In this document: in pieces, positions 27,074-51,884 of the stretch | How positions within the stretch are numbered: the stretch's first letter is position 1 | Layout: each line of letters starts with the position of its first letter | NCBI GenBank assembly: GCA_028753945.1 | Contig: JAPNXP010000014.1 | Location: 4,464,001-4,528,000, forward strand | Length of the DNA stretch: 64,000 bases | Direction of reading: 5' to 3' | Source: Hexactinellida sp. DTS-2022 | Lineage: Eukaryota; Porifera; Hexactinellida | The notes under the pieces: model-generated | Databases searched by the model: none | What the model was told of the DNA's origin: nothing | Seen by the model: only the letters and a program-made list of their open reading frames with translations | Made by a program: the position numbers and the translations under genes

Positions 27074-27481
27074 CAGAGTTGCCGTGGGTATGGGAATCCC
27101 CATACCCATGGGAATGGGATGGGAATGGGAATCAGATTTTCTCCTGTGGGGATCCCCATAGGAATCCTGTGGGAATCCCCATAGGAATCCTGTGGGAATC
27201 CCCATGGGATATTCGAATATGGTTTCATTAGGTCATCCTTAATTAATATAGGCATTACTATTGATACGAATCTCCTCTAGTAATTAAATTCGTTCTTATG
27301 TATATATTATACTCCCCTATTCAGTTTGAATAACCCATGAGGATTCCTATGGGGATTCCCACAGGATTCCTATGGGGATTCCCACAGGATTCCTATGGGG
27401 ATTCCCACAGGATTCCTATGGGGATTCCCACAGGATTCCTATGGGAATGGGAACGGAAATTCCATTCCCACGGCAACCCTG
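27074..27481. mobile_element. hAT-type element, GTTGCCGTGGG family (copy b)
   Basis: The 408-bp element has ends CAGAGTTGCCGTGGGTATGG and CCACGGCAACCCTG. Direct repeats of GGAATCCCCATAGGAATCCTGTGG-type units fill both subterminal regions. It forms the left boundary of the composite. Its right neighbour (from 27482) is the middle of an ACCGGTTATAAG-family TA-target element, so its own original left flank is missing here. Confidence 0.85.
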
Positions 27482-28491
27482 CGGTTATAAGAACATTATA
27501 TGCAGTTCGCGACGATGTGCTTATAACCGGCATCCACTGTATATCGGTCAACACCTTTCTACTGTAATTTCAGGCACTGGCAAGGCCATCACCTTTGCGA
27601 AGCCTGATTATATATTGAAAGGATATACTCTAAAGTATTTGAATCCAAATTTGTGCCACAAGTGGCTCATGACACATACCACTTCAAATATATCGACATA
27701 CGTGAAACCACTATGTTTATATGCACAGTATAACCTCGTTAGTAGAACACGGAACACTATTCAGTCCCCTTCAAAGCCTTTTCAATACAAATGATATTGG
27801 TTAATACGAATCCCGGATAAGGCGAACACATTTTAACGGTCCCCTGGTGTTCCTACTGACGAGGTTCTACTGTATTAATTCCTTATAGATTATACCTCGT
27901 TAGTAGGAATATCATAAGACCGTCAAAATACGTTCGCCTTATCCGGAATTCTTATTTACCAATATCATTTGTATTGAAAAGGCTTTGAAGGGGACTGAAT
28001 AGTGTTCGTGTTAACCGAAATTTCGTATAACCGTGTTCCTACTAACGAGGTTCTACTGTAGTATAATATGTGGTCCTAATCATATGCCACTTGTGGCACA
28101 AAATTTCTGGTTGTTCAATACTTTTAGCGATAGAGTATAAGTAAGTGCATTAAATTGGCTAAATCAGAATAAGAATGATTCTACCGTTTTATAAGAGTTA
28201 CAAGTATTAAATCATTTCTGTAAAGAAGCCGTTAGTTATAAAAATAATAAATCTTTAATTATTGAATAAACATAACACATTACACGGCAACATATATGGT
28301 ACTTTGGAATGTGGCCCATCAATTAACCGATTATAAATAATTTATATGTAGACCGTCTATTTCTAGGCAGGTTTTCTTGATTTAAATGGAATTACCCATA
28401 GACGGCAGGGGATTTTGGTCTACAAATTTTAGCCTAATTTGTATGGGCTTTTATAGGCTTTTATAGTATACAATATAAGGTAGCTCATATA
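27482..28491. repeat. Cluster of TA-target elements, no gene
   Basis: 27482-27541 is a fragment of the ACCGGTTATAAG family ending CATCCACTG. 27726-27872 and about 27887-28059 are two CTCGTTAG-family copies with ends such as CAGTATAACCTCGTTAGTAG and ACGAGGTTCTACTG. The rest (28060-28491) is AT-rich without recognisable content. Confidence 0.7.
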
Positions 28492-28680
28492 AAGTAAAAC
28501 CTCCAAAAGTGAACACCTTCAAGAAATGAACAAAACTCCAAATATGAACACTTTTTCTTAGTCCCAAATTTCCCCATTGCTTTATACACACGTTATGATA
28601 AATCATGAAAAGTGAACACCTCTCAAAAGTGAACATTTTGGCTGGTCTCCAGGGTGTTCACTTTCTGAAAAGTTTTACTG
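28492..28680. repeat. Short TA-target element (AAGTGAACACC family), second copy
   Basis: It matches 469-639 over most of its length, with the left end mutated to AAAGTAAAACCTCC. It is followed by TA. Confidence 0.75.
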
Positions 28681-29010
28681 TATTATAAAAGGTAATGGGG
28701 GGGGGGGGTCAATCAATGTGTGACAGACCATCCTTTTAGTATAACAAATGGTCAAAGAATATACAATAAGGTAGCTCACATATTACCCTAGTTAGAATGG
28801 AACAGAGCTATAATATATAGATATATGAATATAACTAGTTAGTCATTGTGTCTCAGCATATTATAATATTAGCAGTGAAAGCATATATGTTATAGCCCAG
28901 GCTTTCATACAGGCAAATTATCTGCGCGCTTAGATTAAGTTAGAGCTCACACGCGCCTAAATACTCAATTTGTATTACGTCATGTCTTACTATATATACG
29001 GCTGTGTATG

Positions 29011-29160
29011 CAGGGCCGGATTAAGGTCTTCGTAGGCCCTAGGCACTTTGAGGATACCAGGCAGCATGCAGCAATTAGGCCCCAAATTTTTCGTAGGCCC
29101 CAAATTTTTCGTAGGCCCTAGGCACAGTGCCTACTGTGCCTATTGGATAATCCGGCCCTG
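29011..29160. mobile_element. hAT-type element, CAGGGCCGGATTAAGG family
   Basis: The 150-bp element has ends CAGGGCCGGATTAAGG and TAATCCGGCCCTG and a perfect 8-bp duplication TGTGTATG at 29003-29010 and 29161-29168. The interior holds repeated CGTAGGCCCTAGGCAC units. It is inserted in the left arm of the foldback element. Confidence 0.9.
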
Positions 29161-29576
29161 TGTGTATGTTCCCGACTTGGCCTTCAAACAAGAAGGCCAG
29201 TTTTAAATTTCATTCAAAGCTAAACCATGCCTCCTATTGAGGTTTATTTGGATTGTATATGGGGTAATCAACCATTGTGAATCCATTAGAACCACTTTTG
29301 AGAATCTCAGATTTGTGGTTAAGCTATTTAGGCGCCATTTAATGATGACACCACAAATATACAAAAATATACAAATACATGTGGTTGCTTTATAATTTTT
29401 TAAAAATTTAGAATGTCGCCATTTTGTGATTTATTAGCCTTTGGGGTATGAAATATATCCCTATTTTAGTATTCCTATTATAAAATTATTAGATAGAAGT
29501 AACTGAAATTTAAGATATTTGAAAAAAAATTCATTTACCAAAAAATGTTACCGTAATCATTAAATGGCGCCTAAAT

Positions 29577-31970
29577 CAGGGTTGGCAGGTTTCGTCCGGG
29601 TGGTTAAAACCTGGTTTAAACCGTCCTGGACAAAACCTCATGAGTGGACGAAACTGGACAAAACCTAATTAGTGAACGAAAAATATGTTATTTAATCAAA
29701 AATCTCTAAATTACTAATGAAATATTAAGTATATATCTGTAACTACCACTCTAGTTCTTGGCATCCCCTCAGTGCTCTATAACAAGCTACAAGCTTTGCT
29801 GTTTTCTCCAGTCCGAGTCTATTTCTTATTTTAGTTTGGATGATTCCAAAATTTGAAAATATTCTTTCAATTGATGCCGAACTTGATGGTAAGCTAAGTA
29901 ATTTAATGGCCAAGTTACAGAGATCATCCGAGACAAAAATTTTAGATGCCTGGACTGTTCTCCACCACGTTGTGGGCTTTAAACTATGAGTGCATGTAAA
30001 TAATGATGCCGGAAATGGTGCAGTCTTTGCTTGAAATTGGTAGAGTTGTGGTGATAGAGACGCATTTTGTTCAACAAGTATGCTCCTAGCTTCTTCTTGT
30101 TGCTCACATGTCAATCTCTGTCCCATGTATTTTGGATGTAGAATATTAGCTAGATAGTGAATTGGTGTGATAGCTTGATGAAAACGTTGTTGAATCTTGG
30201 TGTGATGATTGGTAAGTTGCACTAACTCTAGTAAATTTAACCACTCTTCACATGAATCTGCAATATTGGATTCGTCACCCTGCAATTTATCCAGAGATAG
30301 TGCAATTGGTTGAAGCTGATCATGAAGATATTTCGCTTCATGATAGAGACCTATATTGTTAATGAGGTTAGCAATAGGAGTTTCGATTACATCTTCATTC
30401 TGTGCCAAAATAATTAGTAGGAAAGTTCTATTTGTTAAATACGTTTGGATACACTCTAGCTGACTGTTCCAGCGTGTAACAACAGGTAATTGTGGTTTAA
30501 TTGATCCTTTCTGATTAGCCAGAAGGGCTCCTGGTCCATGATGATTGCGAAAATATTTGTTTATTTCTGTCACACGGACTATTACTTGTGAAGGCGTTAC
30601 GTCCTTACCAAGCAAGTTTAAGAAATGAGAAGCACAACCATAAACAGTAAGGGAATTATCACTTGATTTCAACTTAGACCGCATGGACTGCATTTTATTC
30701 TCATTATCAGTTACAACTGCGACAACCTTGCAGCCAAACTTTTGAGTTGCTTCTAACGATGCTTCAATTGCCAATGAGGCACAATATGTAGCTGTTTTTT
30801 TATTTGAACCAGTGTCTATAGATTTAACAAAGTAAGATTTTTCACCTGTGTGCACACTGTGTGCAATAACAGGAGTATTATGTATATCGCTCCATCCATC
30901 TTGGACTAAAGTAACATTTTTCCCCTCTAATTGTGAGGCTGCAGTTTTCGTTACCTCTTCGTAAATCTTTTCAAGAAGTGGACCGGCTAAATCTTTTCTA
31001 GAAGGAGGAACATAACCTGGTCGAAGCATTGAGATAGTCTGCTTGAATATTACATGTTCAGCAAGGTTAAAAGGTAAATTACAAGCATAAAACAAACGAC
31101 CAATTTGATCATCAAGTGCAACTTTTTCTTGAGAACTTGTTTTAATAGTGAAGCTATTCATTTTGGGTTGAATATTCGTATTGCATGGACGTTTTGCTGG
31201 TGGAATAAAATAATCTTTACTTGTAATTACTGCATCTGTAATTTGTGATACAGAAAGAATTTCATCAGAATTCTTTGAACTACATTTCGCAAGGTGAGCT
31301 CTAAGCCTACAAGGTTTTGCACTAACAAAACTATCGCATTTAATACATTTGGCTTTTGTTAGTTTCCCTCCTTCTTCGATCGTTATGAAAAATTTCCACA
31401 CTGAGTCATTGGGTCTTCCTCCTTGACTCATTGAAACAAATTCTGTGAAATTTAAATACGTAATAGTAAATATAGAATTTAGAGAATTTTTGAGCTTATT
31501 TTCCGAAATATTGTTAGTTAAATATACTAATGAGTATACGTATAATCGTATATAGTAAATTAAGATGAATAACACAAGGACGAATAACAAAGACGAATAC
31601 CTATAATACATGTGTGTGTGTGTGTGAACCCGTGTGGTGATTATTAATTAATCAAAAAGAAACAGCAGATCAAGTGTAGAAGTTAAACTGATATACTATA
31701 TCAAAATCACTTCACTGTTATTAGTGTGAAGAATATATACTTGCTTTGTATCCTATAAGTGATACATTTTCATAGAGAGATCAGACGAAAACGTTGTACT
31801 CTACCATAATAGCATAAGTAGATATTATGGTGCGGTTCGAGCCTTAACACTAACAATGAAAATAGTTTTGTGCAGTTTTGTCCGGTTTAAACCGGTTTTG
31901 TCCAGTTTAAACCGGGGTTTGTCCACTGTCCGTCCAAAACCAGTTTTCGACTGGACAAAACCCAACCCTG
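29577..31970 (-). mobile_element. Complete, apparently autonomous hAT transposon
   Basis: The 2,394-bp element has ends CAGGGTTGGCAGGTTT and AAAACCCAACCCTG and a perfect 8-bp duplication GCCTAAAT at 29569-29576 and 31971-31978. It encloses one intact transposase gene. Subterminal regions carry many copies of a TTTGTCCGGTTTAAACCGG-like motif, probable transposase binding sites. Removing it and one TSD restores a perfect arm of the foldback element, so the insertion is relatively recent. Confidence 0.92.
29743..31431 (-). CDS. hAT transposase (BED zinc finger, DUF659-like, intact)
   Basis: It cuts and reinserts the transposon. Starting at the ATG of MSQGGRPND (31431), the protein has 562 residues; the frame is open a further 180 bp upstream but that part is hydrophobic low-complexity sequence and an unlikely start. 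Residues about 10-52 are a BED-type finger (CIKC...HLAKC). The hAT core follows: VTLVQDGWSDIH with a catalytic Asp, VVTDNENKMQ, YGCASHFLNLL, and TRWNSQLECI. The C-terminal dimerisation block is LLSLPSSSASIERIFSNFG plus KIRNRLGLEKTAKLV. No stop or frameshift is present. It sits inside its own TIRs and TSD. Confidence 0.93.
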   Translation of the reverse strand: MSQGGRPNDSVWKFFITIEEGGKLTKAKCIKCDSFVSAKPCRLRAHLAKCSSKNSDEILSVSQITDAVITSKDYFIPPAKRPCNTNIQPKMNSFTIKTSSQEKVALDDQIGRLFYACNLPFNLAEHVIFKQTISMLRPGYVPPSRKDLAGPLLEKIYEEVTKTAASQLEGKNVTLVQDGWSDIHNTPVIAHSVHTGEKSYFVKSIDTGSNKKTATYCASLAIEASLEATQKFGCKVVAVVTDNENKMQSMRSKLKSSDNSLTVYGCASHFLNLLGKDVTPSQVIVRVTEINKYFRNHHGPGALLANQKGSIKPQLPVVTRWNSQLECIQTYLTNRTFLLIILAQNEDVIETPIANLINNIGLYHEAKYLHDQLQPIALSLDKLQGDESNIADSCEEWLNLLELVQLTNHHTKIQQRFHQAITPIHYLANILHPKYMGQRLTCEQQEEARSILVEQNASLSPQLYQFQAKTAPFPASLFTCTHSLKPTTWWRTVQASKIFVSDDLCNLAIKLLSLPSSSASIERIFSNFGIIQTKIRNRLGLEKTAKLVACYRALRGCQELEW

Positions 31971-32241
31971 GCCTAAATAGCTTAACCACAAATCTGAGAT
32001 TCTCAAAAGTGGTTCTAATGGACTCGCAATGGTTGGTTACCCCATATACAATCCAATAAACAACAATAGAAGGCATGGTTTAGCTTTGAATGAAATTTAA
32101 AACTGGCCTTCTTGTTTGAAGGCCAAGTCGGGAACATACAGCCGTATATATAGTAAGCCATGATTACGTCTATGCGAGTATCTCTCGATTTTAGCGCCTA
32201 GACAAGTTTCCTATAAAATTACGCGCCTGGATGAAACCATG

Positions 32242-33102
32242 ATTGTACTGTGGTGTTTGTCTAATAGCAATATTGCTCTATTAGCAAAGGTATTTTCAGT
32301 CCACAAGCGAGCATTTAATGCAAGAGAATTTCGTGCAAAATGCGACTTGCTATTACGCGAACAAAACTGTGCGATGTTTATACGATATAAGGGCTGCCAG
32401 TTATCATATAAACTGGTCTATTTATTAGTAAGCAACCAGTTTGAGAGAGAAATATCTATAATGCCACGACATTAATATAAGGTACAGTTGAAACCAGTTT
32501 TTTCTAAATAGCACCGGGTTTTCTAACTTATCAGATATTTGAAAACTTTTTCCAACTAACTATTTATTCTAAATGTGTAATTAATTCAAATTTTGTTTTA
32601 TTTTCAATCGGGTTATTCTAACTATCGGATTTTTCTGACTTTATTTACATGCAAAGAAATTGTTAGAAAAACCGGTTTCGACTGTAATAGATCCTCCCAT
32701 AAAAATGGCTTAATTAAAAGGCACTTGTTTGAATGGTCACAAATTTACGAACAGGATTTTCCTGTTGAAATGGAATAATAGTACAGAACAAAAATCAAAA
32801 GGTACAGTGAATTTGAATAATTAAATGACTATTTGGAACTGAAACTAAGCATAACTAGCTACATATGTTGTTGCTATGTATAGATTATGGAATGTGGTTA
32901 GTAGCCATATGGTTGCCAGGCTGTGTAGCGAGCAGAGAGCTCTGGGATTGCCTGATAGAGTTGTGTGGTTAGTGGTGTAACGGGATAGCTAGCAGAGAAG
33001 TGGCGTGTTGCGTGGTGCGAGCTGTGTGAGTATAAGAAGAGCAGCCAGCAGAGATAGGACAATGCAACTGTGTTAAAGGAACTGAAACTAATCGAGAGTA
33101 GA
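32242..33102. other. Non-coding with a TA-target element
   Basis: 32485-32694 has ends CAGTTGAAACCAG and CCGGTTTCGACTG, flanked by TA; a relative is at 51109-51291. 32244-32380 resembles MCM2 intron 2 sequence near 12400-12560 (TAATAGCA, CAAGCGAGCATTTAATG), a further degraded family. The last ~100 bp is the likely 5' leader of the NHL gene at 33103. Confidence 0.6.
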
Positions 33103-34336
33103 ATGGCAACTGAGTTTGTAGCGGACATGCGAGAAGAGACAGCCAGAGAGCTGGAACGAATTCGAGGGGAAGTGGTGATAGCGAAAGAGGAGTTACGAGT
33201 CCGATTCGAGTACTATTTCCAAGTGCTACGTGGCAGACACATCGAACTGGTGGCACAGCTGGATGAAGTGGTCCGTGTGGCAGACACAAGTGGAGGACAG
33301 ACAGGTGAAGCTGAATCAGTTGAAAGTAACCAAAGCTGATGCGTCACACAATCTCCAACACAATGAGCTCAATGAGACTCTAGTAAATGTGTCCCGAGAG
33401 TTGGACGAGAAGATACGGGGACTAGAGGCGACTGTGGATCGGATTCCATCTGTGTGGCTCGAGTGGCATGACGGGTGGTTGGAAGGTGGCATGGCTGGAT
33501 TGTGTCGCTTGTGTGAGGGTGTATCCTACGTGAACAGACACAACCCAGTGTGGTCTGGTGTCAATCAAGGAAAGGGACAGACGGAAATATGTGTTCCTTA
33601 TGGTCTATCAATAGACAGAGACAATGGGGATATATTTGTGTGTGATCATTTGGCTCATAGGATTCAGGTGTTTCGCAAAGAAGGCAATTATTCGAGAACA
33701 ATTAAGCCACAAGGAATGACTTTTCCTGATTCCATAACTGTCTCACTCCATCATCTGTTTGTCATCTGTCATTATCCACATAATATCTACAAGCTAGATA
33801 AAGTGTCTGGGGACATTCTGTGTCGTGTTAAAACAAAGTATAACATGTGTGGTCTGTCAGTTGACACAGACACACTGTATGCAGGAATGTGTGGAACTAA
33901 TATCATATCTCATTTCAGTGTTGAGGATTTGCGGTCTATCGATAGGACTCCACTTAACTCTCCACACATAACAAAGCACACTAGTCTATGCGACCTAAAA
34001 TTAGCTCCCTCTCTATTTATAGTCCTGTTTGATGAGTGTCCCTATTCTATCCAATCATTTACCAGAGATGGGAACCTAATGCATTCGATTGTGTCACAGG
34101 AACAGCTGATTGGAGCTTATTCTTTCTGTCTGGACAGACACATGAATATTATAGTTAGTGACCATGGAGCTCATAATGTTAAAGTGTTCAACAGAGAGGG
34201 ACAGCTTGTCGGTACCATGGGACACGAAGGGACAGGACCTGGAGAGTTCATATTACCTCAAGGCATAGACATCAACAAGGAGGGACTTGTTGTTGTTGTT
34301 GATTGTAAGCAGTCTCATATGTTGCAATTCTTCTAA
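33103..34336 (+). pseudogene. Coiled-coil/NHL-repeat protein with one frameshift
   Basis: The frame from ATG 33103 encodes a helical coiled-coil (MATEFVADMREETARELERI...), then shifts near 33280-33290. The second frame continues VEDRQVKLNQLKVTK and runs to 34336. The C-terminal part has NHL-type beta-propeller repeats: VPYGLSIDRDNGDIFVCDHL with HRIQVF, and the last one LPQGIDINKEGLVVVVDCKQ. The layout matches the 411-residue NHL proteins at 37790 and 59905 but the sequence is far diverged. It resembles TRIM2/3/71 proteins without RING and B-box. The single shift could be a real lesion, a missed splice or an assembly error; apart from it the gene looks coding. Confidence 0.65.
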
Positions 34337-34642
34337 TCTCCTATTTATTTGTGTTTGTTTATTCATTAAAATAATAGAATAAATGAAATCTTGACTTAAG
34401 TCAATAGTCCTTATTTTAACTTGGGGGAGTAGTAGTAAACATTTTATGTAAATGTTTTCTTATTAATTTTGTTCCACCAGTTCTCCAATCAGTAATCACT
34501 AAACAAACAAACAAACAAACAAACAAACAAACAAACAAACAAATAAACAAACAAACAACAGTCATCCCTCTAAGCCAATTAACTTTACTGTATTCAATTT
34601 AATAAATAAAACTAAAATAAATAAAAAACAAACAACAACAAT
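34337..34642. other. Short intergenic stretch with AAAC microsatellite
   Basis: The NHL gene at 33103 and the cadherin are convergent. Between their stops lies an (AAAC)n run at 34500-34560 and AT-rich sequence that should hold both polyadenylation sites (AATAAA-like sites near 34600-34625 for the minus strand are not clear-cut). Confidence 0.5.
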
Positions 34643-37300
34643 TTATATTATTGAAATCCCAGATCCATCTTCGCTTCCAAAATCCACCAAAACCTTTGAC
34701 ACCTCATCATCAGAAAAATCCACCATAGAATTAACTGCGACACTAACACCTCCACTTTTGTCATCAAACAAATCAACAACAGATCGCAAACCGCCTAAAC
34801 TATCAAAATCTTCAGAAAATAATTCCATAGTTAGTTCCTGTGATTCATAACGCAAAGAGGCTGGCTTTTCAAAAAAAGATGAATTCGGGTAAGGACTTAT
34901 ATAAAGTGGATTTGTAAGTGAATGTAATTCGGTTGGTGACGAAATATTGCTCTGAGATGGGAAATAAGTTGAAAGACTAGCGTATGATTTGGCATATTGT
35001 TGTTTACGTTGACGCAGCCTATAAATGCGTACCATTAACATACACAGAACACAACTACAACAAGCTATAAATATAACTAGGATAGTTGATAGGATTATTA
35101 AAGCTAATTCAGTTGAAATTAAAGTTGTGTCTTTTGGAATAATTGGTTCGGCTAATTGAATGCCGGCTGTAAATAAAAGATCGTTTATAAGTGCTTCATT
35201 TTCATCAATACCTCGTAATAAATCTAGACCTTCAATCAAGGTGTTATTGGTTAAATGTGTCGCATGTATGTTTACAGTGGTTTTCGAAGGATCAACTAAA
35301 TTTAAAGTGTCGTAAAAAGGCGATATTTGGTCAATAATAACATTAACTTTTATAGCCACTGTAAATATATCTTCTATTTGATGTTGGTTTGTTATCACAA
35401 ATTCAGGTGATCGATTCAATACCATTTCAATGACAAAATTGGGAGAAATTATTACAATATGCACGTTTTCAGTGTCAAAAAGTGTCGGAGTAACACCTTT
35501 ATTATCAAAGGCACGAATTTGGAAATCAAAAGTACGTCCAACTTGTCCGGTAAATAAACCAGTTGAGGACATTATCCCGTTTTCTAAATCAACCACAAAA
35601 CCGGAGGAAATTCCCATTAGCTTGAATTGTATTTCTCCAAATAATCCGGAATCAATATCGGTTGCATTGAATATAAATACCGTAGCCCCAGTGTTAAAAT
35701 CTTCTAGCAAACCTTTGTTATACTTTGTATCTGTGAGAAAAGATGAATTGTCATTAATATCAAATATTAAGACTCGGACACTATTTTGAGTTGTCAAAGG
35801 TGTTATTCCATTGTCTGTAACAATAATTGTGAATGTGTATATTGATGCCACTTCATAATCAAAGGTGTTAAGTGTAGATAACACACCAGTTATCGCGTTA
35901 ATAGAGAAATTAGCAGAATCTCCATTTTGAATCGAAAAATAAAATTCTTTATTAACACCTATATCACTATCAGTAGCATAAAATCTAAAAATAGAACTCA
36001 AAACAGAAGTTGATTCGCTGATGGAAATTTCATAAGTGTCAAGTGTCAAAATAGGAGGATTGTCGTTAAAATCTGTGATTGTTATTGAAATTGTTAAATT
36101 AGTTTTTAAGGAAGGAATTCCATTATCAAGTGCTTCTATTTTAAGTGTATAATGATCAAAAGTTTCCCTATCAATATTTGCAATGGCTATTGTCAATTCA
36201 GCCGTTTGTTCATTCATTGCAAATGTTGTTAATCCAGTGATTGGGTTACTGTCTACTAGTCTATAAGTTAGTTCCATATTGGTGTTGATATCCGCATCTG
36301 TGGCAGGGGTATTGACTATCACCTGACCGACAAATGTGTCCTCGCGAATGAAAAGTGTCGTTTGAATAGAGACATCAAAAATAGGTTGATTATCATTAGA
36401 ATCAGTTATGTAAATATTTAAGTTTATTTGATTGGAAAGGCTAGGGGATCCATTGTCATTTATTATTATTGTTAGTTGGACGAAATCTAAATTTTCTCGG
36501 TCGAGAATTTGTGACACCTCTAATAACCCAGTTACGGAACCTATCTTGAACAAATTGGAACCAGTAAGTGTGAAAGTTATAGTTCCATTTTCACCGAAAT
36601 CAGGATCACTCGCCAAATACTGCACAACTGAAGTAGCAACCAATGTGTTCTCTGGAATGCTAATATTAGTAGCAATAGGTGTGAGAAATTGTGGCGTGTT
36701 ATCGTTAATATCTAGAATACCAATTTGGACAATAAGTGGATCAGAATCCAATTGGGGAACCCCTTGATCCACACCCTTAATAGCGACACTATAAGAAGAG
36801 ATTAATTCCCTGTCCAACTCTCTAGCTACCTTAAGTTCTCCGGTATTAAAGTCTATCAGGAAATCAGCTGATCCAGATATCTTCACAAATCTACAAAGTA
36901 TAATATTACGTAATAGGAACTATAGAGTATAGTAATAGTAAAGTATAGTAATAGTATAATACAGTCAGGTTCTTTTATTATGAACATTCAAGGGACCAAA
37001 AATTGTGTTCATAATAGAGAGACTTCATAATAAGCGAACTCAACTTAATACAAACCCTATGTAAGTTGTTAAATTGGGACCATAGGGCTTGTTCATAATA
37101 AAAAATCTTCATATTAAGCAGACGAAATCTTGTTCATAATAAGCAGACACCTGACTGTATTACGTAATAGGAACTATAAAGTATAGTAATAGTAAAGTTT
37201 AGTAATAGTAAAATACAGTAGAACCTCGTTAGTACGAACACGATTAATACGAACACTATTTCAGTCCCATTCAAAGCCATTTCAATCATTTCAATTCTAA

Positions 37301-37597
37301 AAATCTAAAATTACAGCTGTGCCGACAGCATGTCCTTTGGAGGCACTATATTCTGTTCGTTGGTTGATCAATAGTGCCTCCAAAAGTAAATAACTGATTG
37401 AAGAAATCTAAAATTACAGCTGTGCCGACAGCATGTCCTTTGGAGGCACTATATTTTGGTCGTTGGTTGATCAATAGTGCCTCCAAAAGTAAATAACTGA
37501 TTGAAGAAATCTAAAATTACAGCTGTGCCGACAGCATGTCCTTCGGAGGCACTATATTTTGGTCGTTGGTTGATCAATAGTGCCTCCAAAAGTAAAC
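37301..37597. repeat. Three tandem copies of a 103-bp hairpin unit
   Basis: Each unit holds CAGCTGTGCCGACAGCATGT and the inverted pair GGAGGCACTAT / ATAGTGCCTCC. The same motif forms the nested hairpins of 16741-17262. It lies about 190-490 bp upstream of the NHL gene at 37790, within the last cadherin intron. Confidence 0.85.
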
Positions 37598-40158: not shown

Positions 40159-41660
40159 TACAAATGACACCGGTTAATAGTAATCCCGGATAATACGAAT
40201 AAATATCGACGGTCCCCTGGTGTTCCTACTAACGAGGTTCTACCATACACTCCGTATAAGCTCACTTAACAACCGCATTAGTAGTGATATCCCCATCAGT
40301 AGCCGACACGAGTAGCACAACAACACCAACAACAACATCTTCAGACAGCTCAGTTGAATATGAAACTGGAACTAACTCTGGATGGTTATCATTAACATCG
40401 GAAAATGCTGACTCGTATATCAGCTGTTCCCTGTCTACTCGCGTTACCGGCGTCAACCGCTGTAACAGTAAACGTGTAGAGAGCCTTAGTCTCAAAGTCA
40501 AACGTGTCTGTTGTAGAAACCTGACCTAAATAGTAAGTGTTAATTGGAACTGGAACTAAAGTATCAATCAACTAAAGTAAAAGCTAGAGAAAGTGAACAC
40601 CCTGGGGACCAGCCATAATGTTCACTTTTGAGCGGTTTGAACTAAAGTATATTACAGTTGATCAGCTTATAAATAATAGAGCCACCAGTTAATAGATTTC
40701 TCCGCTTAATGGGGACAAAGTTTCACAGGATTTATAGGACGGAATTACAGTTTGGCTTAAAATATTTTCGGTTAATAGATTTCTCCGCTTAATCGGGTCA
40801 AAGTAACCTGGTCCCGAGGTGACTCTATTAAGCGGAGTAGACTGTATTGACAGAATTATTTATTTAACAACCAACACCTTTTCTAATATAATTGTATGCA
40901 CTGGTATGGCAATGTCATTTTTTTATATAAAAAAATTGTATATAAAAAATTTGATGTGAAAAATTTGTATGTTAACCTACCTATTTGTGGTTCAATAACA
41001 AACTTGACAGCTTCAGGCCCATTTATAGAATAAGTCAGCATACTATTCAGTCCCTCGTCTCCATCAATAGCAAACACACTCAGAACAACTGTACCGACCG
41101 CTCTACTCTCTAACAGTGTGGCTGTATAAACAGTCTGTGAGAAAGTAGGGTTCTCATCATTAACATCCACTATAATAATATCCAAACTGGTACTAGAACT
41201 AAGTTGGGGTGTCCCCTGATCCATAACAAGAATTGTAATTAAATAACTGTTGATATTCTCTCTATCAATATCTGCTGTTTTAACTGTAATTTGCCCGGTA
41301 TTCTCATCAATACGAAATGTGTTCAAACCAGAACTAGGTTGGGAACTATAAATAGAATATTTAAGGACCTTATTGGAACCAATATCGGCATCAGTTGCAG
41401 TTATAGTAGCTACTGCCTGACCGATACCTAGGTTCTCTTTAATGTCAACACTTGTGGGTGTGTCAGGTGTGAAAATAGGAGCGTTGTCGTTTATATCTGA
41501 GATACTTATACTCACAGTAGCCAATGAACTGAGAGGAATGGAGCCACCATCTATAGCGAATATCTATAAATAGAACAGTTAGTGATATTGGGAGTAAGTT
41601 TGTTAAGGGACATTTTAATGTCCCATGTTACCTTGTTACATTTAGATTTATATGTATGTA

Positions 41661-41832
41661 CAGTAGAACCTCGTTTGTAGGAACACGGTTATTAGGAAAT
41701 TCCGGTTAATACGAATACTATTTCAGTCCCTTCAAAGCCTTTTCAATACAAATGATATTGGCAATACGAATTCCGGGTAAGGCGAACGCATTTTGACGGT
41801 CCCTTGGTGTTCGTATTAACGAGATTCTACTG
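41661..41832. repeat. TA-target element (CTCGTTAG family)
   Basis: The 172-bp element has ends CAGTAGAACCTCGTTTGTAG and ACGAGATTCTACTG, flanked by TA, in the cadherin intron between exons 42311-42686 and 40981-41563. Confidence 0.78.
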
Positions 41833-42711
41833 TAATTTAATTGGTTAATAGAATAGATGAATAAAGCTGAAAGTATAACTTAGAAATAGCGGTTAAATTT
41901 TAAGCGCCAATAATTTAAAACCAAGAATTTATTCGGATCGTAAATTTCAAAATTAAGCGCCAGAATTCATGTTTTAAAATTCTGGTTTGAATTATTGGCG
42001 CTTAAAATTTAGCCGCACTTTTATAGGATTTATACTTTCACCATTATTTATCTATTATATTGTCTACTGTAGAGTATTATTTATCTATTCTATAATTTAT
42101 ATTGTATACTGTAGACGTGTAGAGCAATAATTTATTTGTCTATTCTATACTATACTATACTATATTGTAACCTTGAGTATATTTATATATTGTATACTAT
42201 AGAGTAACATTATCTATTCTATTGTATACTATACTGTACTATATTGTAAGTTGTAACCTTGAGTATATTTATCTATTGTATACTATATACTATACTATAC
42301 TATACTGTACCTTTAGTGTGTATTCGTCCTGCGTTTCCCTGTCCAGCTGTGCGACTATTTTTAGCTTCCCGAGATGCGATCTATCTCGAACCCCCCTTCC
42401 CCCCCTGACAACGAGAATGTGACAATGGCATTCGCACCAATATCGCTATCGGTAGTGGCATAGGTGTCGACCACAAAACCGACACTTTCTCCCTCACTCA
42501 CTGCCACAGGTGAGGCAGGTGTTGGTGCGAATAGTGGCACGTTGTCGTTTACGTCTGTGACAGATATAGTTAGAATGGCATTTGTGTCGGAGGTAAGTGG
42601 CAGAGTGGCTTGATCCACTGCCTCGACCTCAACGATGTGTCGGTCTAGAGATTCTCTGTCGAGACTAGACACCAAGCTAACTTCTCCTATCGGATATTAG
42701 GCACTGTAGAA

Positions 42712-42910
42712 CTCGGTTATAAGAACACCGGTTATAAGAACAGACCGGTTATAAGAACACCGGTTATAAGAACACACCGGTTATAAGAACACCGGTTATA
42801 ACTTATAAGAACACCGGTTATAAGAACACTATGTTGGAAAACGGTTTCCATATACAGTAGATATCGGTTATAAGAATATCGGTTATAAGAACACCGGATA
42901 TAAGAACATT
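42712..42910. repeat. Tandem array of ACCGGTTATAAGAAC units
   Basis: About eight near-identical copies of a 16-17 bp unit derived from the end of the ACCGGTTATAAG TA-target family. It lies directly beside a cadherin exon (its acceptor is at 42687-42688). Confidence 0.8.
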
Positions 42911-43002
42911 ATTTGAAATTCCCGACGATGCAAGGCAAAAATTATACAATTAATGTTGCATGTATTTTGTATGTGTTGTTCTAAATATAATAATATATGT
43001 AC

Positions 43003-43160
43003 AGTGAACTCTCGTTAAAACGAAGTGCTTGGGACCTGTAAATTCCTTCGTTATATCCGGATATTCGTTATAAGCGGATAATAATTAATGCATTTAGTGC
43101 TCTGGGGGAAAATCTCCATTTCGTTATAAGCAATTATTTCGTTATAACGGGAGTTCACTG
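43003..43160. repeat. Short element with ends CAGTGAACTCTCGTTA
   Basis: Inverted ends CAGTGAACTCTCGTTAAAAC and GTTATAACGGGAGTTCACTG enclose repeated TTCGTTATA motifs. Left-flanked by TA; pogo-like by terminus. Confidence 0.7.
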
Positions 43161-43794
43161 TGTTTAAATTCCAACACCACTTGAAAATTTGCCTAACTCA
43201 TATAACAAATCATTTTGTTTGTGTTGTTCTAATAATATGTATACCGGTATTTACCTGAAACTGAGTCTACTGCGAAGAAGGAAGTTGCAGACACCATATT
43301 GAACCTAACACTTCCACTTAGTTCCAGATCTCTATCACTAGCAGATAGTTTCACTACAACAGAGCTAGTGCTCGTATTCTCACTAAGTTCTATAAAGAAA
43401 GCGGTCTTAACAAACACAGGTTTATTATCATTTGTGTCGTTAATAATCATTCTGAGTTGTGAAGTGGTTTGTCGAGCGGGTGTTCCTGTGTCGCTTGCGG
43501 TTAGAGTTAGTTCGAATTCCGATGTGCTCTCTCTGTCGGTAGGCAGGGAAGTGGTCGTAACTGCGCCACTTGTGACACCCATGGAGAAGTGACCGCCAAG
43601 ATTCCCTCCTATATAGGTAGGGGATATAGTATAAATATATGTATGTATATTGTAAATGATTGTTGGTTTGTTTGTTTGTTGGTTTGTTTGGCTAGTTGAA
43701 TGTTTGTTTGTTTGTTGGTTTGTTTGTTTGTTTGTTTGTTTAAATATAAATATATGTATGTATATTGTTTGTTGGTAGTTTGTTTGTTTGCTAG

Positions 43795-44155
43795 AGTAGA
43801 ACCTCGTTAATAGGAACACCAACGGACGATAAAAATATGTTCGCTTTATCCGGAGTTCGTATTAACCGGAGTAATACAGTAGATATCGGATATAAGCACA
43901 CCGGTTATAAGAACATATCGGATATAAGCACACTATGTTGGAAAACGGTTGCCATATACCCTGTATAATTTATGTTGGTTATAAGAACATGCCGGTTATA
44001 AGCACCTTAAGTGCAGTTCCCGACGATGTGCTTATAACCGGCATCCACTGTAATACCCATTGAATAGCCACTGTAGATACCTGATTTTGTGGAACTGTTT
44101 GTTCGTCTTATCCGGAAATTCGTATTAACCGTGTTCGTACTAACGAGGTTATACT
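43795..44155. repeat. CTCGTTAG-family element with an ACCGGTTATAAG copy inside
   Basis: The outer element starts GAGTAGAACCTCGTTAATAG (first base mutated) and ends ACGAGGTTATACTG. A 174-bp inner element at 43877-44050 (CAGTAGATATCGG to GGCATCCACTG) is flanked by TA. This shows the ACCGGTTATAAG family was active after the CTCGTTAG family at this site. Confidence 0.78.
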
Positions 44156-44229
44156 GTAGTTTGTTTGTTTGGCTGGTAGTTAGTTAGTTAGTTAGTTTGT
44201 ATGTTAGTATGTTAGTTAGTTAGGTAAAC

Positions 44230-46256
44230 GGACACTTCGTCGACGGACATTTCGTCGAAGGACATTTCGTCGAGGACATTTCGTCGAACGGACATTTCGT
44301 CGAACGGACATTTCGTCGAACGGACATTTCGTCGACGTATTATTTAGAATATGAATTTAACTATAAGCATTTAATCAATTAATCAATGATTAAGTAAGTA
44401 ATAATAGAAAAAGCAATTAATTACTGAAATGAATAAATAAGTATAATAACAACGGTAAAGCAATTATTGAAACAAAATAATTAAAAGTTAAAATTATGAG
44501 CAATTCCTTTGAGATAAGTTATAATATCCCTATTTGGAAAATCTGTAACAATCGCTACGATGCGCTTGCTCCTGGCTATAGAATCTTTAGATTGAGATAT
44601 AATATCACCAGACTCCCATTTTGCTAACTTCGCTTCTTGCAAAGATTGCTCAAGCTGTAAAAAATGCAAAAGCTTGGAAAAACTTGGGTGAGCACAACTA
44701 ATGCCAGATTGAAAACCATTATGCCACCCTTCTACAGAATTATTGGTTCGAGCGACGTGCAAATTAACCCGAGTATATTGGTTCCATATTCTTATTGGAA
44801 ACGGTGGAATTTTTCTGGTATTGTTTGGCAATATTCTTCCAATATAAGTGTCTTCAAAGTATTCTGCAATTTCTATAGCAGTTGTTGGAAATTCTACCAT
44901 AAGTGCTGTAAAAGATTGAATAACTTTGTCTTCTGGAACAAATGCTAAACTGGGTAACATTTTTATTTGGAGAGCGAAATTTGTATCTTCAATATATTGG
45001 TTAGTAAGCCCAGCTGATTGTATCTTGCGATAAATATTTTGTGACAGGTGGAAAAAACATCCTGACACTACGCTAAGAAATTTCTCTTCAAATGCATTAA
45101 TGGAGGCCTTCTCAAAATCCACCATAATTAGAAAAGGGTTTAATTCAGGATTTATTTCAAGAATTTTTGTGAATAGTTTCTTATAGGTGGCTTGAGTTTT
45201 GTTAGTCAGTAGTGCATATATGCATGGAATTATAGTACTACCTTTTTCGGCATGAATAGTGTAAAGTTGGAAGAATTGCTCAGGTACAACTTTGAAGGTG
45301 CCATCTGCATACCAACTTTGAGATTCTTGCAGTAATGAAAGCATTTTAGGTGCACTGAAAATTAGCATACGGTTTGAATCTCCGATTCCAGAATCATACA
45401 CTAAGAATAATTCACCCTTTAGAGTAATCCTGTATTTGTCAGGTATAATCATCTCTGCAGCTGATGCTTGGTTAATACTAGTGTCTTCATCTAAACACTT
45501 ATGTCTGCGTAGCGTTCGTTTAACTGAATCGAGTCTAGGTAGCGCTATTATACTAGTTTCATCGAGTTTGGTAATGCCTTTTGATAAGATCAATCGAGGT
45601 TTCTCTCCCGAGTTTGATGCACACTCTTTCATTGACTGATAAGCTTTCAACATTTGGGAACGTCCTGGATCAGGTCCATGTGAATGACTGGAAACTATTT
45701 CACTAACTTCAGTTGGTTTAATAACTATACCCCCTTGGGTTGTATTAATTCGAGCATTACATAGTCCACGCTTTTCACATACCCAGTATTGGGTACCTGC
45801 CGCGCTAACTCTATTAAGAGTGTATAAAAAACCTTGTAGGTACGCCTTATTTTTCGCTTTCGTAGTTTTGACAATTTCTATGCTAAGTGATTCGGCCATT
45901 CGTAAATTTTCATATTCATAAACAAATGTACATTTATACAGATCTTCGTTTTATGCAACCATAAAAATATAACACGCTATTGATAACATAAACCATACCA
46001 ATTATGAGTGTCATTGTATGTTAAGCTGTTAAGTCAATCAATGAAGTGTCCGATTACTTGTGAAAGTATAACACACAATTGAATGAACCAAAACAATTAA
46101 AGGTGCTAATATATAACTGACAAAAATGTCCTTTATACCCAAAGTCCGTTCGACGAAATGTCCGTTCGACGAAATGTCCATTCGACGAAATGTCCGTTCG
46201 ACGAAATGTCCTCGACGAAATGTCCGTCGACGAAATGTCCGTCGACGAAGTGTCCG
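44230..46256 (-). mobile_element. Complete MULE transposon with tandem-repeat termini
   Basis: Both ends consist of about seven copies of a 16-bp unit, GGACATTTCGTCGAAC, in inverted orientation: left 44230-44338, right 46142-46256. The outermost unit on both sides is GGACACTTCGTCGACGGAC, so the ends correspond in detail. It encloses one intact FLYWCH-MULE transposase. A 9-bp TSD is not evident; the left flank is a GTTA microsatellite that may obscure it. It lies in a cadherin intron (between the exons at 46719-47397 and 43255-43608). Confidence 0.9.
44481..45899 (-). CDS. MULE transposase with FLYWCH finger (intact)
   Basis: The 472-residue ORF from ATG 45899 has no lesion. Residues about 18-75 form a FLYWCH-type finger (FLYTLNR...YWVCEKRGLCNARI...HSHGPDP). 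The MULE domain spans about 190-290: WYADGTFKVVP with the first catalytic Asp, IMVDFEKASINAF with the second, and GCFFHLSQNIYRKIQ with the CxxH pair; the final catalytic Glu is probably in NNSVEGWHNGF (about 400). Unlike the MULE genes at 25973 and 55074 it has no RING finger. It probably mobilises its own tandem-repeat ends. Confidence 0.92.
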   Translation of the reverse strand: MAESLSIEIVKTTKAKNKAYLQGFLYTLNRVSAAGTQYWVCEKRGLCNARINTTQGGIVIKPTEVSEIVSSHSHGPDPGRSQMLKAYQSMKECASNSGEKPRLILSKGITKLDETSIIALPRLDSVKRTLRRHKCLDEDTSINQASAAEMIIPDKYRITLKGELFLVYDSGIGDSNRMLIFSAPKMLSLLQESQSWYADGTFKVVPEQFFQLYTIHAEKGSTIIPCIYALLTNKTQATYKKLFTKILEINPELNPFLIMVDFEKASINAFEEKFLSVVSGCFFHLSQNIYRKIQSAGLTNQYIEDTNFALQIKMLPSLAFVPEDKVIQSFTALMVEFPTTAIEIAEYFEDTYIGRILPNNTRKIPPFPIRIWNQYTRVNLHVARTNNSVEGWHNGFQSGISCAHPSFSKLLHFLQLEQSLQEAKLAKWESGDIISQSKDSIARSKRIVAIVTDFPNRDIITYLKGIAHNFNF

Positions 46257-47519
46257 CCATTCCCACCTAGGATAGGACACAATGAGACACAATTAAGCAA
46301 ATATATGTTAGTCTTTGGAATAAAATTTGAAATATTATTCCATAAAAATTTCTGACACAATTAAAATTTAAGATTTTTCACACTTTATATTCATACACTA
46401 AATATATGTGTTATTAATAACTAGGTTTATCGTGGGAATAAAATTTCAATTATTATTTCCATATAATTTCCATCTAATATTCCATTCCATTTCAAGGTAT
46501 ATAGTAGAAGACCCTAACTAATCCGAACAGTAAGACACAATCAAATTTTAAGATTTTTCACATTTCTTAGTTGAGAAAAGTTTTTATTTGAAAAATATTT
46601 TTTGAATTTTTTTGAAATTCCGCTTCGGATTAGCAAGGGTGTGAATGTACAATTCCAATAGGAAAATTCCCATACTAACTAACCCACGGCAACCTGGTAA
46701 TAATTTATTAACACCTACCAATTAAAGAGAATCTCAGCTGTGAATTAAGTGTATTAGGCTCATCTGCATCAGTTCCTAACTTAGTTCCAATTACGTCATT
46801 CTCCAGATAATCGAACGTATACGTAGCCTGTATTATAGGTGAGTTGTCGTTAATATCTGTAACAATAATTTGTAGTGTAACAGTGTCGCTTAAACCACCT
46901 ATATCAACACACTCTATAATTAGAGTATAGAAATCGGTCGTTTCTCTATCTAACTGGTTTCTGATTATAACAGTTCCAGTTAAAGGTAGAACTGTAAACT
47001 TGTTTTCATTAGGTGTCTCACTGATTATAGAATAAGTCAAGCGGTTATTTATAGGATTAATATCTCCATCAAAGGCTGCTAATACTCGAATTGTGGATGA
47101 AATTCCCATATTTTCAGGAATAAAGTCTATAAATAGATCAGGTGTGAAAATAGGAGAGTGGTCGTTTGAGTCTGTGACACTTATTTGGACCTGTGAAGTG
47201 GCAGATCGAGGTGGCACTCCGTTATCTTCGGCTAACACTTTAAAATCGTATAATAATTGTGTCTCAGCATCCAGAGAATTGGCTATATAAATGTGTCCCA
47301 ATTTGGAATCTATTTTGAAGTAGGAAGAATCTGGTGACTGGATAAGAGAGAATGTTATTATAGCATTTGCGCCTATGTCATTGTCGCTTGCATTAACCTA
47401 TAAACAACATACAGTAGGAACACGGATAAGGTGTACAAGCATACAAAGGGTTTGTATTGGAACTAACACCTTTAGGATAACAATGTAATATGGAACTAAT
47501 AGAAAATACAGTATACTAT

Positions 47520-47875
47520 ACTAACTATATAGTAGACTCTGTTAATAGGAACACGGATAAGGGAAATATCGGTTAAGGAGTACAAAGTTAATTCCCCTAG
47601 CCTATACAAATGCATGTAATTGACTCCGGTTAATATGAATTCCGGATAATACGAACATATTAAGACGGTCCCCTGGTGTTCCTATTAACAGAGTTTACTG
47701 TACTAATACGGTCCCCTGGTGTTCCTATTAACAGAGTCTACTGTATTAATACGGTCCCCTGGTGTTCCTATTAACAGAGTCTACTGTATTAATACGGTCC
47801 CCTGGTGTTCCTATTAACAGAGTCTACTGTATTAATACGGTCCCCTGGTGTTCCTATTAACAGAGTCTACTGAAT
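47520..47875. repeat. TA-target element whose right end is tandemly amplified
   Basis: It begins GTAGACTCTGTTAATAGGAAC. From 47670 the right terminus, about 48 bp containing TACGGTCCCCTGGTGTTCCT and AACAGAGTCTACTG, is repeated five times almost without change, up to the donor side of the cadherin exon at 47910. Confidence 0.85.
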
Positions 47876-48131
47876 ATGGAAGTTAGAATTGTTTCTTAAG
47901 TGTCACTACCTGTAAAACAGAGGTGTCAAGTGAGGTATTCTCAGACAGAGTTTCCTGATACAGACTTTTAGAGAACACGGGGTCCTGTGTGTTGGCATCT
48001 GTAACAGTAACCACTACAGTACCAGTTCCTGTTAGGGATCCTGAGTCGGTTGCGACTGTGAGGAGAGTAAAGACAGAGATAGTCTCTCTGTTGAGAGCAG
48101 CGGTGACAGATATGATACCTAGGTTAGAGGT

Positions 48132-48425
48132 TAGGTAAACAGGAGTAAGCAATGGTATACAGTAAGAGATGACATAACAACAAATAAACAAACAAACAAA
48201 CAAACACGAATAAAGACACAACACAACAAACAAATAAACAAACAATCAATCAATCAAACAGATAAATAAACAATTAAATATACAATCAATCAAAAAACAC
48301 ATAAACACACATAAACATATAGAAAACAAACAAACAATCAAATAAACACAAACAAATAAACAAACAATCACATAAATAAACAACCAAACTAAATAAAAAT
48401 AAAAAATAAAAACAAACAAATCACT
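48132..48425. repeat. CAAA/CAAT microsatellite filling a cadherin intron
   Basis: Low-complexity (AAAC)n, (AATC)n and (AAAT)n runs occupy most of this short intron between the exons at 48426-48756 and 47910-48118. Minus-strand ORFs extending through it are spurious. Confidence 0.75.
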
Positions 48426-49459
48426 AGTTATACTGAAATGGTTCCCTATATTAGAGCTTGAGAGAATACTGTAACTAATCACTGCATTAATTCCTGTATC
48501 ATTATCATTAGCAAACACAGTCAATAGGTTATGTGGCACTGTAACACTTTCTATAACATCAACAGATCGATTAATAGGTGTGAAAAATGGGATCTGATCA
48601 TTGGTATCCTCAACTGTTATAATTAATAAAGTTGTAGAATCTCGAGGGTCAATTGGATCCATATCGGATGCCACAAGGTTGATTTCGTAACTAGGGACTT
48701 CTTCCCTGTCTAGAGTAGATTGTGTTGTGATTACGCCACTTGAGTTCACTTGAAACCTGTTAAGTGGCATAGGTAATTGTATTCTAAAATTAGAAGGCTG
48801 AAATCACTTCAACCGAATACCATTTTTTCAACTTTTTCAACTTTTTTTAATTTTTTTTATTCAACCAAATAGTTAAACAAATAGGAATTTTATAGATTTC
48901 TGAAAATATAGAGATCGTTTTGAATAAATATTTGGTCAACCCAATATATTCGTCTTCAAAACAAATATCAAATACAGTCAACATTCGTTAATTTGAACAA
49001 CCAAATATATTTTTCCTTCGAATTAATTGACTACTGATATTCGGTAACCAACAATATATTAACTTTTGACAAGTAATATTTAATCAAACCGAATATTGAA
49101 CTATGCATTTAAATCTGGCTGGAACCTTGATATATATAATCACCTGTTGGCATATACACCAGTTAGGGAATATGTCACCATGCCACTAACACCTTCATCA
49201 ATATCAACAGCTGTTATAACACCTAGTGTCACACCTGGCATTTGTTCCTCTAGGACACACTACGTAAACCTGTCACTCGTGAATACTGGTGAGTTATCAT
49301 TTATATCCGTAACCGTTATAACTACAGTAGCAGTAGAGGAGAGAGTAGCTCCGAACTTGTCAAACACGACAACTCCAAATGTGTAGCTAGATTGTGTCTC
49401 GCGATCCAAAGCGCCACTAACAACCACCTCGCCACTAACCGCGTTTATAGTGAACACTC

Positions 49460-50670
49460 CTACATTAAGGGAATTACTTAAAAACAGTAGAAATCGGTTT
49501 ATTCTAACTATTAGTGATACAATCTTGTGAAGAAATTCCTACTTTACTAAGTACGTAGTATTTTTCATCGGTTTTTTATAATTAGTTATACAACACCTTT
49601 CTAATGTCAGTGAATACTAGTATATAGTGAATACTCCTAAAGTTAATGGAATTACTTAAATAATTAGTTATACACCTTTTCTGATATAATTTAAGGATAA
49701 AATATCATTTTTACATCAAAATTCACTTTTGCGAAGCCGGGGTTATGTATTAAAAAATACATTACAGTAGCAAATAAACTCGTTAATACGAACCGTCTTA
49801 ATATGTTCGTATTTTCCGGAATTCATATTAACCGGAGTCACTTGCATGCATTAGGGGTACTTATTATTTGAGTAAATATGGATATTTATGTAGGGTATTT
49901 CTTAGTTGACTTATTCATTGAATTATATCAATGGTTGATAAACTTGTAACGATATTATTTAATAATTTTATTTTTATTTTTCCAATTGTGATTCTTGATA
50001 GATAATGACAGATATTCTATAACATAATTTCAAGATACGTAACGTACGTATTTAGCTTGTAACTTTACTTGAAGATTCACTGATTAAAGATTAGCAATAA
50101 CCTGAATCATTCAATATTGGCTATTATTCAATGAATTAGTCAACTGAGGGTCATATGAATCCCTTCACTAAATACACTTATTTACTATTCACCCTAAGTC
50201 TCTCAGAGATACTGAGTTTGTAGAGTATTTTAGTGTCAGCGATTCCCTGAACACATGAATAGTTAGTTTATTTTCGCAAACTAAGTTGTATAATTGTAAA
50301 GTAGAAACATAGTAGATTTGCTTCATTTCAAAATACCTAAACAAAGTGTGAAATCCCTATACGGTTGGCATACATACAAATTGGAACAATGTTTTGTACA
50401 CGCGCATCATGTAAATTCAGACATTTACCGGTTTTGCAATTATCTACAGGTTTGCCTGTTCCCTAAGATTCATGTTATTTGTTGCCTCATTCATTGTTTC
50501 AGATAATTTGTGACAGATTAACAGTTGGCACTGTTCGATAAACCGTAATTAATATACTGACTTAGTGGATTAAATTAGTGGATTACTCCTTAAATCCCGA
50601 ATAAACAAATGAAAATGCCAGAGGTATAATTTCATGCAATAAGTCACTCGCCATTGAAGACAATAACTTG
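49460..50670. other. No gene seen upstream of the first cadherin exon
   Basis: I find no further cadherin exon, no signal-peptide exon and no promoter element. 49770-49850 holds a fragment of the CTCGTTAG family (CTCGTTAATACGAACC). The composite boundary element begins at 50671, so the cadherin lacks its 5' end here. Confidence 0.6.
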
Positions 50671-51876
50671 CAGAGTTGCCGTGGGTATGGGAATTCCCAT
50701 GGGGATCCCCATACCCATGGGAATGGGATGGGAATCAGATTTTCCCCTGTGGGGATCCCCATAGGAATCCTGTGGGAATTCCCATGGGATATTCGAATAT
50801 GGTTTCATTAGGCCATCCTTAATTAATATAGGCTTTACTATTGATACGAATCTGCTTTAGTAATTAAATTGTTTTTATGTATACGTATGTATGTTGCAGT
50901 GCATATGCACTTTTGGTGTACATGCATGTACACTGATAAGTTGGTGTACATGCATGTACACCGGTGTATATGCACTTTATGAACTATATTGGCTACAAGT
51001 GTATATACACCGGTGTATACGCACTTTTATCCATTTTTTATGCAAATGGGTGCTTATGAATTTAAACTAGTGTATTGTTAATTCCTGTGTATCTATCTAG
51101 TTATGATTCAGTCGAAACAGGTTTTTCTAATCCCAGTTTTTTGTAACTAATCGTTTTCTTTTCTATTTATTCTAAATGTGTAAGAAATTCCAATTTTGTT
51201 TTATCTTCAATCGGTTTATTCTATAAACTATCGGATTTTTCTTACTTTATTTCCATGAAATGAAATGTTTAGAATAAACCGGTTTCGACTGTATAACATT
51301 TGATTATATTGATAAGATACAATTATAATCATACTGTCAATGCATTTCAATAAACACAAATTCTTTGAAGTTAATTCTAATTATATTCCCAGCAATGCAT
51401 CCTACAATTGCATTTGTGAAAATCTAATCGATTGCAATTTTATCAAAGTAATTTACACGCGCCGTATGTCATAATATAGTACATGCGTATGTATAATACT
51501 AGCTATATAACATCGAGGGAATGTACAATTTCAGAATCAATGTTTTATCATAACTTAGATACACAGGAATTAACAATACACTAGTTTAAATTCATAAGCA
51601 CCCATTTGCATAAAAAATGGATAAAAGTGCGTATACACCGGTGTATATACACTTGTAGCCAATATAGTTCATAAAGTGCATATACACCGGTGTACATGCA
51701 TGTACACCAACTTATCAGTGTACATGCATGTACACCAAAAGTGCATATACACTGCAACATGTATATTATACTCCCCTATGGGATTCCTTATGGGGATCCC
51801 CATGGGAATTCCCACAGGATTCCTATGGGAATGGGATGGGAATGGGAATGGAAATTCCATTCCCACGGCAACCGTG
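50671..51876. mobile_element. hAT-type element, GTTGCCGTGGG family (copy c)
   Basis: It has the same orientation and interior as copy b (shared TATTCGAATATGGTTTCATT), but is enlarged to 1,206 bp by a nested foldback element (50898-51753). Its right end is the right boundary of the composite and carries the TSD CTTATCAT. Its left flank is ATAACTTG. Confidence 0.87.
50898..51753. mobile_element. Foldback element with ~210-bp arms
   Basis: Near-perfect inverted arms begin CAGTGCATATGCACTTTTGG and share GTACACCGGTGTATATGCAC, itself palindromic. The centre carries a TA-type element at 51109-51291 with ends CAGTCGAAACAGG and CCGGTTTCGACTG. It is inserted in copy c of the GTTGCCGTGGG family; the target duplication is not certain (GTAT on both sides is possible). 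Confidence 0.8.
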
Positions 51877-51884
51877 CTTATCAT

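Follow-up and report, generated by a model that had tools for sequence, protein, structure and literature searches.

A 24.8-kb block bounded by two hAT elements has probably moved as one unit into a MULE gene of a hexactinellid sponge

The window analysed here is a stretch of 64,000 nucleotides from Hexactinellida sp. DTS-2022 (C6:4464001-4528000, in an assembly of 18 contigs and 112.4 Mb; contigs are given below as C with a number). It contains a MULE transposase gene, M1, that lies in two halves with a 24.8-kb block of other DNA between them. The block starts with a short non-autonomous hAT element (A) and ends with another (B), and the 23.2 kb between these two elements is called the cargo. 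A second MULE copy, M2, lies further to the right; M1 and M2 both belong to a type of MULE transposase gene with a C3HC4 RING finger at its end. The features at the junctions are as follows, with positions in the window (TSD, target-site duplication).

25961..27073, + strand: left half of the MULE transposase gene M1 (Pfam MULE PF10551 in 26312-27073, E 2.5e-9)
27066..27073, + strand: left copy of the outer 8-bp repeat CTTATCAT, judged the TSD; read directly, single in M2 and in the C18 copy
27074..27481, + strand: element A, non-autonomous hAT of subfamily 2, 408 bp, with CAGAG...CCCTG ends; 12/12 diagnostic sites
27482..27489, + strand: inner flank of A, CGGTTATA, presumed half of A's donor TSD; read directly
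27482..50670, no strand assigned: cargo, 23.2 kb, with diverged paralogues at C14:378-410 kb and C1:10.442-10.452 Mb
50663..50670, + strand: inner flank of B, ATAACTTG, presumed half of B's donor TSD; read directly
50671..51876, + strand: element B, non-autonomous hAT of subfamily 1, 1206 bp, with CAGAG...CCGTG ends; 13/13 diagnostic sites
50893..51758, no strand assigned: 866-bp palindromic element nested in B, a long-armed palindrome with ATGTAT flanking both sides
51877..51884, + strand: right copy of the outer 8-bp repeat CTTATCAT, judged the TSD; read directly
51885..52391, + strand: right half of M1 with the C3HC4 RING finger (Pfam zf-C3HC4_3, E 6.5e-11)
55050..56640, + strand: M2, with the unoccupied site at 56136-56143, from alignment with M1

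The two halves of M1 (to position 27073 and from position 51885) aligned with M2 across the site with no gap and no overlap when one CTTATCAT was counted. The reading frame continues over the cut, with the left half ending in ...ESYH and the frame resuming at YHARLK; an in-frame stop was already present in the left half at about 26306. A second uncut MULE copy, also with a single CTTATCAT, was found on C18 (site at C18:3994286). Beside the site M1 was identical to the C18 copy at 92/94 positions in its left half and at 125/127 in its right half (221 bp compared), and to M2 at 66/73 and 113/127 positions, respectively. The near-equal match of both halves to the same C18 copy argues for their origin from a single copy, and an origin from different MULE copies was ruled out because both are about 98% identical to that one copy near the site. 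The octamer CTTATCAT flanks only the outer sides of the block, left of A and right of B. As it is missing on the inner sides, independent insertion of A and B at the same octamer was also ruled out. By these alignments M1 is one gene cut by a 24.8-kb insertion, and the 8-bp repeat is the TSD of the whole unit.

These results agree with the sequence-only reading of the locus, which had claimed that the M1 halves are in frame and join exactly at the duplicated 8 bp, and that M2 keeps the unoccupied site, where CTTATCAT is indeed single. An origin of the halves from separate copies with differing substitutions, which that reading had named as grounds for giving up the idea, is contradicted by the comparison with the C18 copy. 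Its view that the outer termini are inverted ends of one hAT-type family was likewise borne out by the variants of CAGAGTTGCCGTGGG at both ends, and the inner flanks were unlike as it had stated.

Elements A and B have the same orientation. Both begin with CAGAGTTGCCGTGGG and finish with inverted variants of it, and their junctions are exact to the terminal bases. At up to two mismatches CAGAGTTGCCGTGGG occurs six times in the window, as compared to 0.02 occurrences expected. Throughout the assembly 507 termini fitted CASRGTTGCCGTGGG, with none in a reversed-pattern control. The exact CAGAG form occurs 51 times, namely in A, in B, once in a copy designated L029 and in 48 other copies, whose sequence was taken. 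A recognisable right end was found within the sequence taken for 34 of these 48, and both flanking octamers were readable in 33. The octamers of these 33 copies matched at 8/8 positions in 23 copies, at 7/8 in three, at 6/8 in one and at no more than 4/8 in six; the flanks of L029 matched at 8/8. One more element in the window, element C (23968-24661), has its own TSD, TCGATATC.

With 8-bp TSDs, short terminal inverted repeats starting with CA and a transposase-encoding relative, the family has the features of hAT elements. The relative (L088, C1:3895498-3899385) is 3.9 kb long, has CAGGGTTGCCGTGGG ends with the TSD CACATATT on both sides, and encodes a 564-aa hAT transposase open reading frame (ORF; Pfam Dimer_Tnp_hAT, E 2e-18). 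Its own relatives elsewhere (94-98% identity) are one nearly complete copy in two pieces and two fragments. Judging by the shared ends, a protein of the L088 type may move A and B. We also made a simple matrix of target preference from 28 TSDs of the family, with CTTATCAT excluded. On this matrix CTTATCAT scored 4.18, a value reached by 0.44% of the window octamers, which fits the apparent target preference of the family.

Next, A and B were assigned to subfamilies. The two subfamilies were defined from 33 other full-length copies by 13 separating alignment columns, with each letter shared by 70% or more of its group; the grouping itself draws in part on the last of these columns. Element A carries the subfamily-2 letter at 12/12 of the columns where it has a letter, and B carries the subfamily-1 letter at 13/13. 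The combination of a subfamily-2 left end with a subfamily-1 right end was found in 0/33 of the other copies, among which L041 is too diverged for a subfamily class and L046 has two foreign letters. The longest stretch from the left end of A that is common to any of the 18 subfamily-1 copies is 24 bp, and only 2 bp from the right end of B are common to any of the 15 subfamily-2 copies. Over 374 columns, element A and a copy on C14 (L076) are 99.5% identical, and both have the same deletion near the left end. On these comparisons A and B are whole, non-recombinant elements that are internally uniform.

Taken with the single TSD around the outer ends of two elements that are both whole, these results make it highly probable that the 24.8-kb block moved as one unit, mobilised through the outer ends of two distinct hAT elements, that is, as a macrotransposon. 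At an earlier locus A and B, both short and non-autonomous and from two subfamilies, would have lain in direct orientation with about 23 kb between them. A hAT transposase supplied in trans would have treated the left end of A and the right end of B as the ends of one element and brought them together. The unit would then have been cut at these outer ends and inserted into M1, and the usual 8-bp staggered cut would yield the duplication of CTTATCAT. Macrotransposition is preferred because A and B are each uniform in subfamily, and the earlier claim of movement by the outer ends of two elements is therefore supported, on evidence that the sequence-only reading did not use. We infer the donor locus, the identity of the acting transposase, and cut-and-paste in preference to copying.

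That reading had relied on the unlike inner flanks to rule out insertion through a circle, and this argument did not hold. A circle made between two elements carries a hybrid element whose right flank comes from one of them and whose left flank comes from the second, and therefore unlike flanks are expected from it as well. What the unlike inner flanks exclude is only a circle with one element and its own TSD pair. A rival explanation starts from an element (X) already resident in M1 at CTTATCAT, with which the cargo would have recombined from a circle or a repair template. A circle arising between two elements would give both the outer TSD and the unlike inner flanks; the family is abundant, as seen from its 507 exact termini, and copies with unmatched flanks exist. 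Element A would then be the left part of X joined to the right part of one element of the circle, and B the left part of a second one joined to the right part of X, so that both would be hybrids. No subfamily switch was found at any diagnostic site of A or B, however. The resident-element model predicts that the left end of A and the right end of B agree, and as they are of subfamilies 2 and 1 this prediction fails. The crossover would need to lie no further than 24 bp from the left end of A or no further than 2 bp from the right end of B, or else X itself would be a chimera of a kind absent in the 33 copies. Based on this, we regard recombination into a resident element as very unlikely.

The same model predicts that the donor keeps the reciprocal product, an element with CGGTTATA on one side and ATAACTTG on the other. 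At 0-1 mismatch the searched patterns gave no element with CGGTTATA as its left flank and none with ATAACTTG as its right flank; at two mismatches they gave two and five matches, respectively. A locus of this kind may have been lost. The nearest copy, L034 on C18, has the left flank TGGTTATA, one letter from CGGTTATA, which could speak for such a product, but its right flank is CCTAAGGT; it has no matching TSD and was ruled out by that right flank. Two further candidates for donor remnants (L036 and L038) were rejected as ordinary copies with their own TSDs.

Another possibility is a composite insertion, in which transposition by reversed ends or linked to re-replication placed the block here and left a copy of it at the donor. 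In maize, composite insertions can themselves behave as macrotransposons (PMC9910405). Searches with the cargo halves (39 candidates scored for each) gave no sign of a second copy, yet the cargo itself was not among the matches, so that their silence is weakly informative and counts little against a retained near-identical donor. A search with the rightmost 818 bp of the cargo did list the cargo itself; among the best 40 of 44 candidates the next match was 91% identical over part of the length, and the assembly gave no near-identical second copy of this stretch. In addition, the outer ends are in direct orientation and require no such pathway. A composite insertion is for these reasons most improbable. 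No second composite with a shared outer flank was found among the terminus clusters on C1 (100 of the 507 termini, with one or both flanks read). We give equally little credit to an assembly artefact that joined the cargo into M1 through the repeated elements: the junctions were read in the assembly sequence, but a repeat-mediated misjoin would give hybrid elements, as in the circle model, and both junctions are precise down to the terminal base in an assembly of 18 contigs.

Several observations weigh against macrotransposition. The evidence comes from one assembly, one haplotype and one genome, and the subfamilies were defined only from copies with one exact left end. The presumed TSD halves are unremarkable on the preference matrix, as the score of CGGTTATA is reached by 45% and that of ATAACTTG by 13.5% of the window octamers. 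Unmatched flanks are not rare, as the six of 33 copies mentioned above indicate, and other rearrangements touch the family; several CAGGG terminus pairs on C1 are also without matching flanks. No paralogue was found that spans the right edge of the cargo and the insertion site of B (44 matches, two relatives inspected). The donor scar was not found either: the pattern had ten matches as compared to seven in the reversed control, about as expected by chance, and the MITE (miniature inverted-repeat transposable element) half expected on the left was seen in none of the five surroundings inspected. The donor locus proposed earlier, with CGGTTATA and ATAACTTG each as the other half of a TSD, did not turn up next to any element at 0-1 mismatch.

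The edges of the cargo were compared with its paralogues. The cargo is colinear, in pieces of about 84-95% identity, with C14:378-410 kb and partly with C1:10.442-10.452 Mb. At its left edge lies the right part of a common palindromic MITE that is cut by the inner edge of A, and several fuller copies of this MITE elsewhere continue uncut. C14 and C1 remain homologous to each other for about 370-400 bp further left than the point where the inner edge of A cuts the cargo; in a similarity search with the donor left flank only these two contigs carry most of it (best 40 of 3271 candidates). Because both the MITE copies and the C14 and C1 homology continue past this edge, the cargo is judged, from these alignments, to have lost its left neighbourhood exactly at A. 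The MITE at the edge is probably the same insertion as in the paralogues, although positions 27542-27751 differ from both. On the right, the colinear homology to C14 stops about 0.8 kb before B. The features of the cargo are the following.

27482..27541, + strand: right part of the palindromic MITE, cut by the inner edge of A; 98% identical to C14:409687-409746 and further loci
29577..31970, - strand: separate hAT element with a 634-aa ORF (Pfam DUF659 and Dimer_Tnp_hAT) and its own 8-bp TSD, GCCTAAAT
33182..34336, + strand: NHL-repeat ORF, 384 aa (Pfam NHL)
34643..49470, - strand: cadherin gene, 5'-truncated in comparison to the C14 paralogue (Pfam Cadherin in 34646-36919 and 46711-47397)
37790..39025, + strand: open NHL-repeat ORF, 411 aa (Pfam NHL, E 6.8e-26)
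44208..46261, - strand: MULE element with FLYWCH and a 489-aa ORF (Pfam); copies up to 97% identical elsewhere

The sequence-only reading had described the cargo as host-type genes. Cadherin and NHL-repeat ORFs are present, one of the latter open, but the cadherin gene lacks its 5' part. With four N-terminal cadherin ORFs of C14 the window gave matches of only 25-59%, all to other cadherin repeats, whereas a control ORF matched at 89%; the gene is called 5'-truncated for this reason. One extra N-terminal cadherin ORF of C14 has a start that looks like a signal peptide when read by eye. The hAT element within the cargo has CAGGGTTGG ends, and both C3 and C12 have copies of it at 97-98% identity. 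At C1:13.67-13.79 Mb many clustered copies are about 90-91% identical to the cargo segment with the 411-aa NHL ORF.

The divergence of the parts was also compared. A and B differ by about 0.5-2% from their nearest relatives among the copies compared and M1 by about 2% from the C18 copy near the site; between the cargo and its paralogues the difference is about 5-16%. As A, B and M1 are far closer to their relatives than the cargo is to its paralogues, it is likely, going by these distances, that the gene block was duplicated first, that A and B inserted next and that the unit moved last.

Macrotransposons of Ac/Ds were reportedly described in maize by Huang and Dooner in 2008. In the literature found, as far as its available text goes, hAT macrotransposition is described from maize Ac, and a natural animal hAT macrotransposon with its cargo was not found in the accessible portions of the literature searched, where one may still be in print. 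One report on maize Ac describes macrotransposons of 10.3 and 28 kb, of which the 28-kb unit was excised with a modified 8-bp TSD as its footprint (PMC9910405). The present case resembles these in its linked hAT termini, with the outer 5' and 3' ends acting together; in contrast to them both of its ends are non-autonomous and from two subfamilies, and the event is a fossil in an assembly. For Anopheles gambiae, another study reports a P-element MITE with ends from two P subfamilies, for which en-bloc movement of neighbours followed by deletion was proposed (PMC1562414). Macrotransposition and ends from two subfamilies are common to both cases, but there only a shrunken product of P and not of hAT is seen, whereas here both elements and the cargo remain. 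In a study of Galileo in Drosophila, chimeric copies with exchanged TSDs were taken as a sign of ectopic recombination as opposed to aberrant transposition, and inversion 2z3 was ascribed to ectopic recombination (PMC2775673). The reasoning from chimeric or uniform copies is the same as ours, and the Galileo cases differ in being inversions. The mechanism is thus known, and the present case, so read, is a new natural example of it with ends from two subfamilies of non-autonomous elements. It preserves both elements, the cargo and the target, and the two subfamilies serve as built-in labels. It would show that in another eukaryote a pair of MITEs is able to mobilise 25 kb and split a gene, and the distinction between whole and mosaic elements offers a simple test for spotting further cases.

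The outer ends of the unit look intact and a transposase ORF with the same end family is present in the genome. This leaves room for the unit to be still mobile, which we consider unlikely. If it were, the family could repeatedly move multi-kilobase gene blocks and so help spread the NHL and cadherin paralogues among chromosomes, and a left end of subfamily 2 would function together with a right end of subfamily 1.

Some further observations were made on the family and the locus. Unmatched flanking octamers were seen at L034, L040, L041, L064, L068, L083 and L085 and at C1:7331143, 7339047, 7802644 and 6450403; these copies and end pairs are possible products of ectopic recombination or other composites. 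Two termini, L055 (C4:1756703) and L086 (C18:3717684), share the left flank GGCCGGGC. Neither shows a right end in the 500 bp taken, and they are perhaps carried inside a larger repeat. L092 and L093 (C1:4509012 and C1:4513594) share the same element end and the flank ATGAAATATTGG, inverted and 4.5 kb apart. Here an element and its surroundings are duplicated in inverted orientation, an arrangement that could also result from alternative transposition. Relatives of M2 at 65-92% identity are scattered over the genome. Between M1 and M2, a block of short GTTAGTCCTACTC-type repeats in both orientations occupies positions 53900-54800 of the window.

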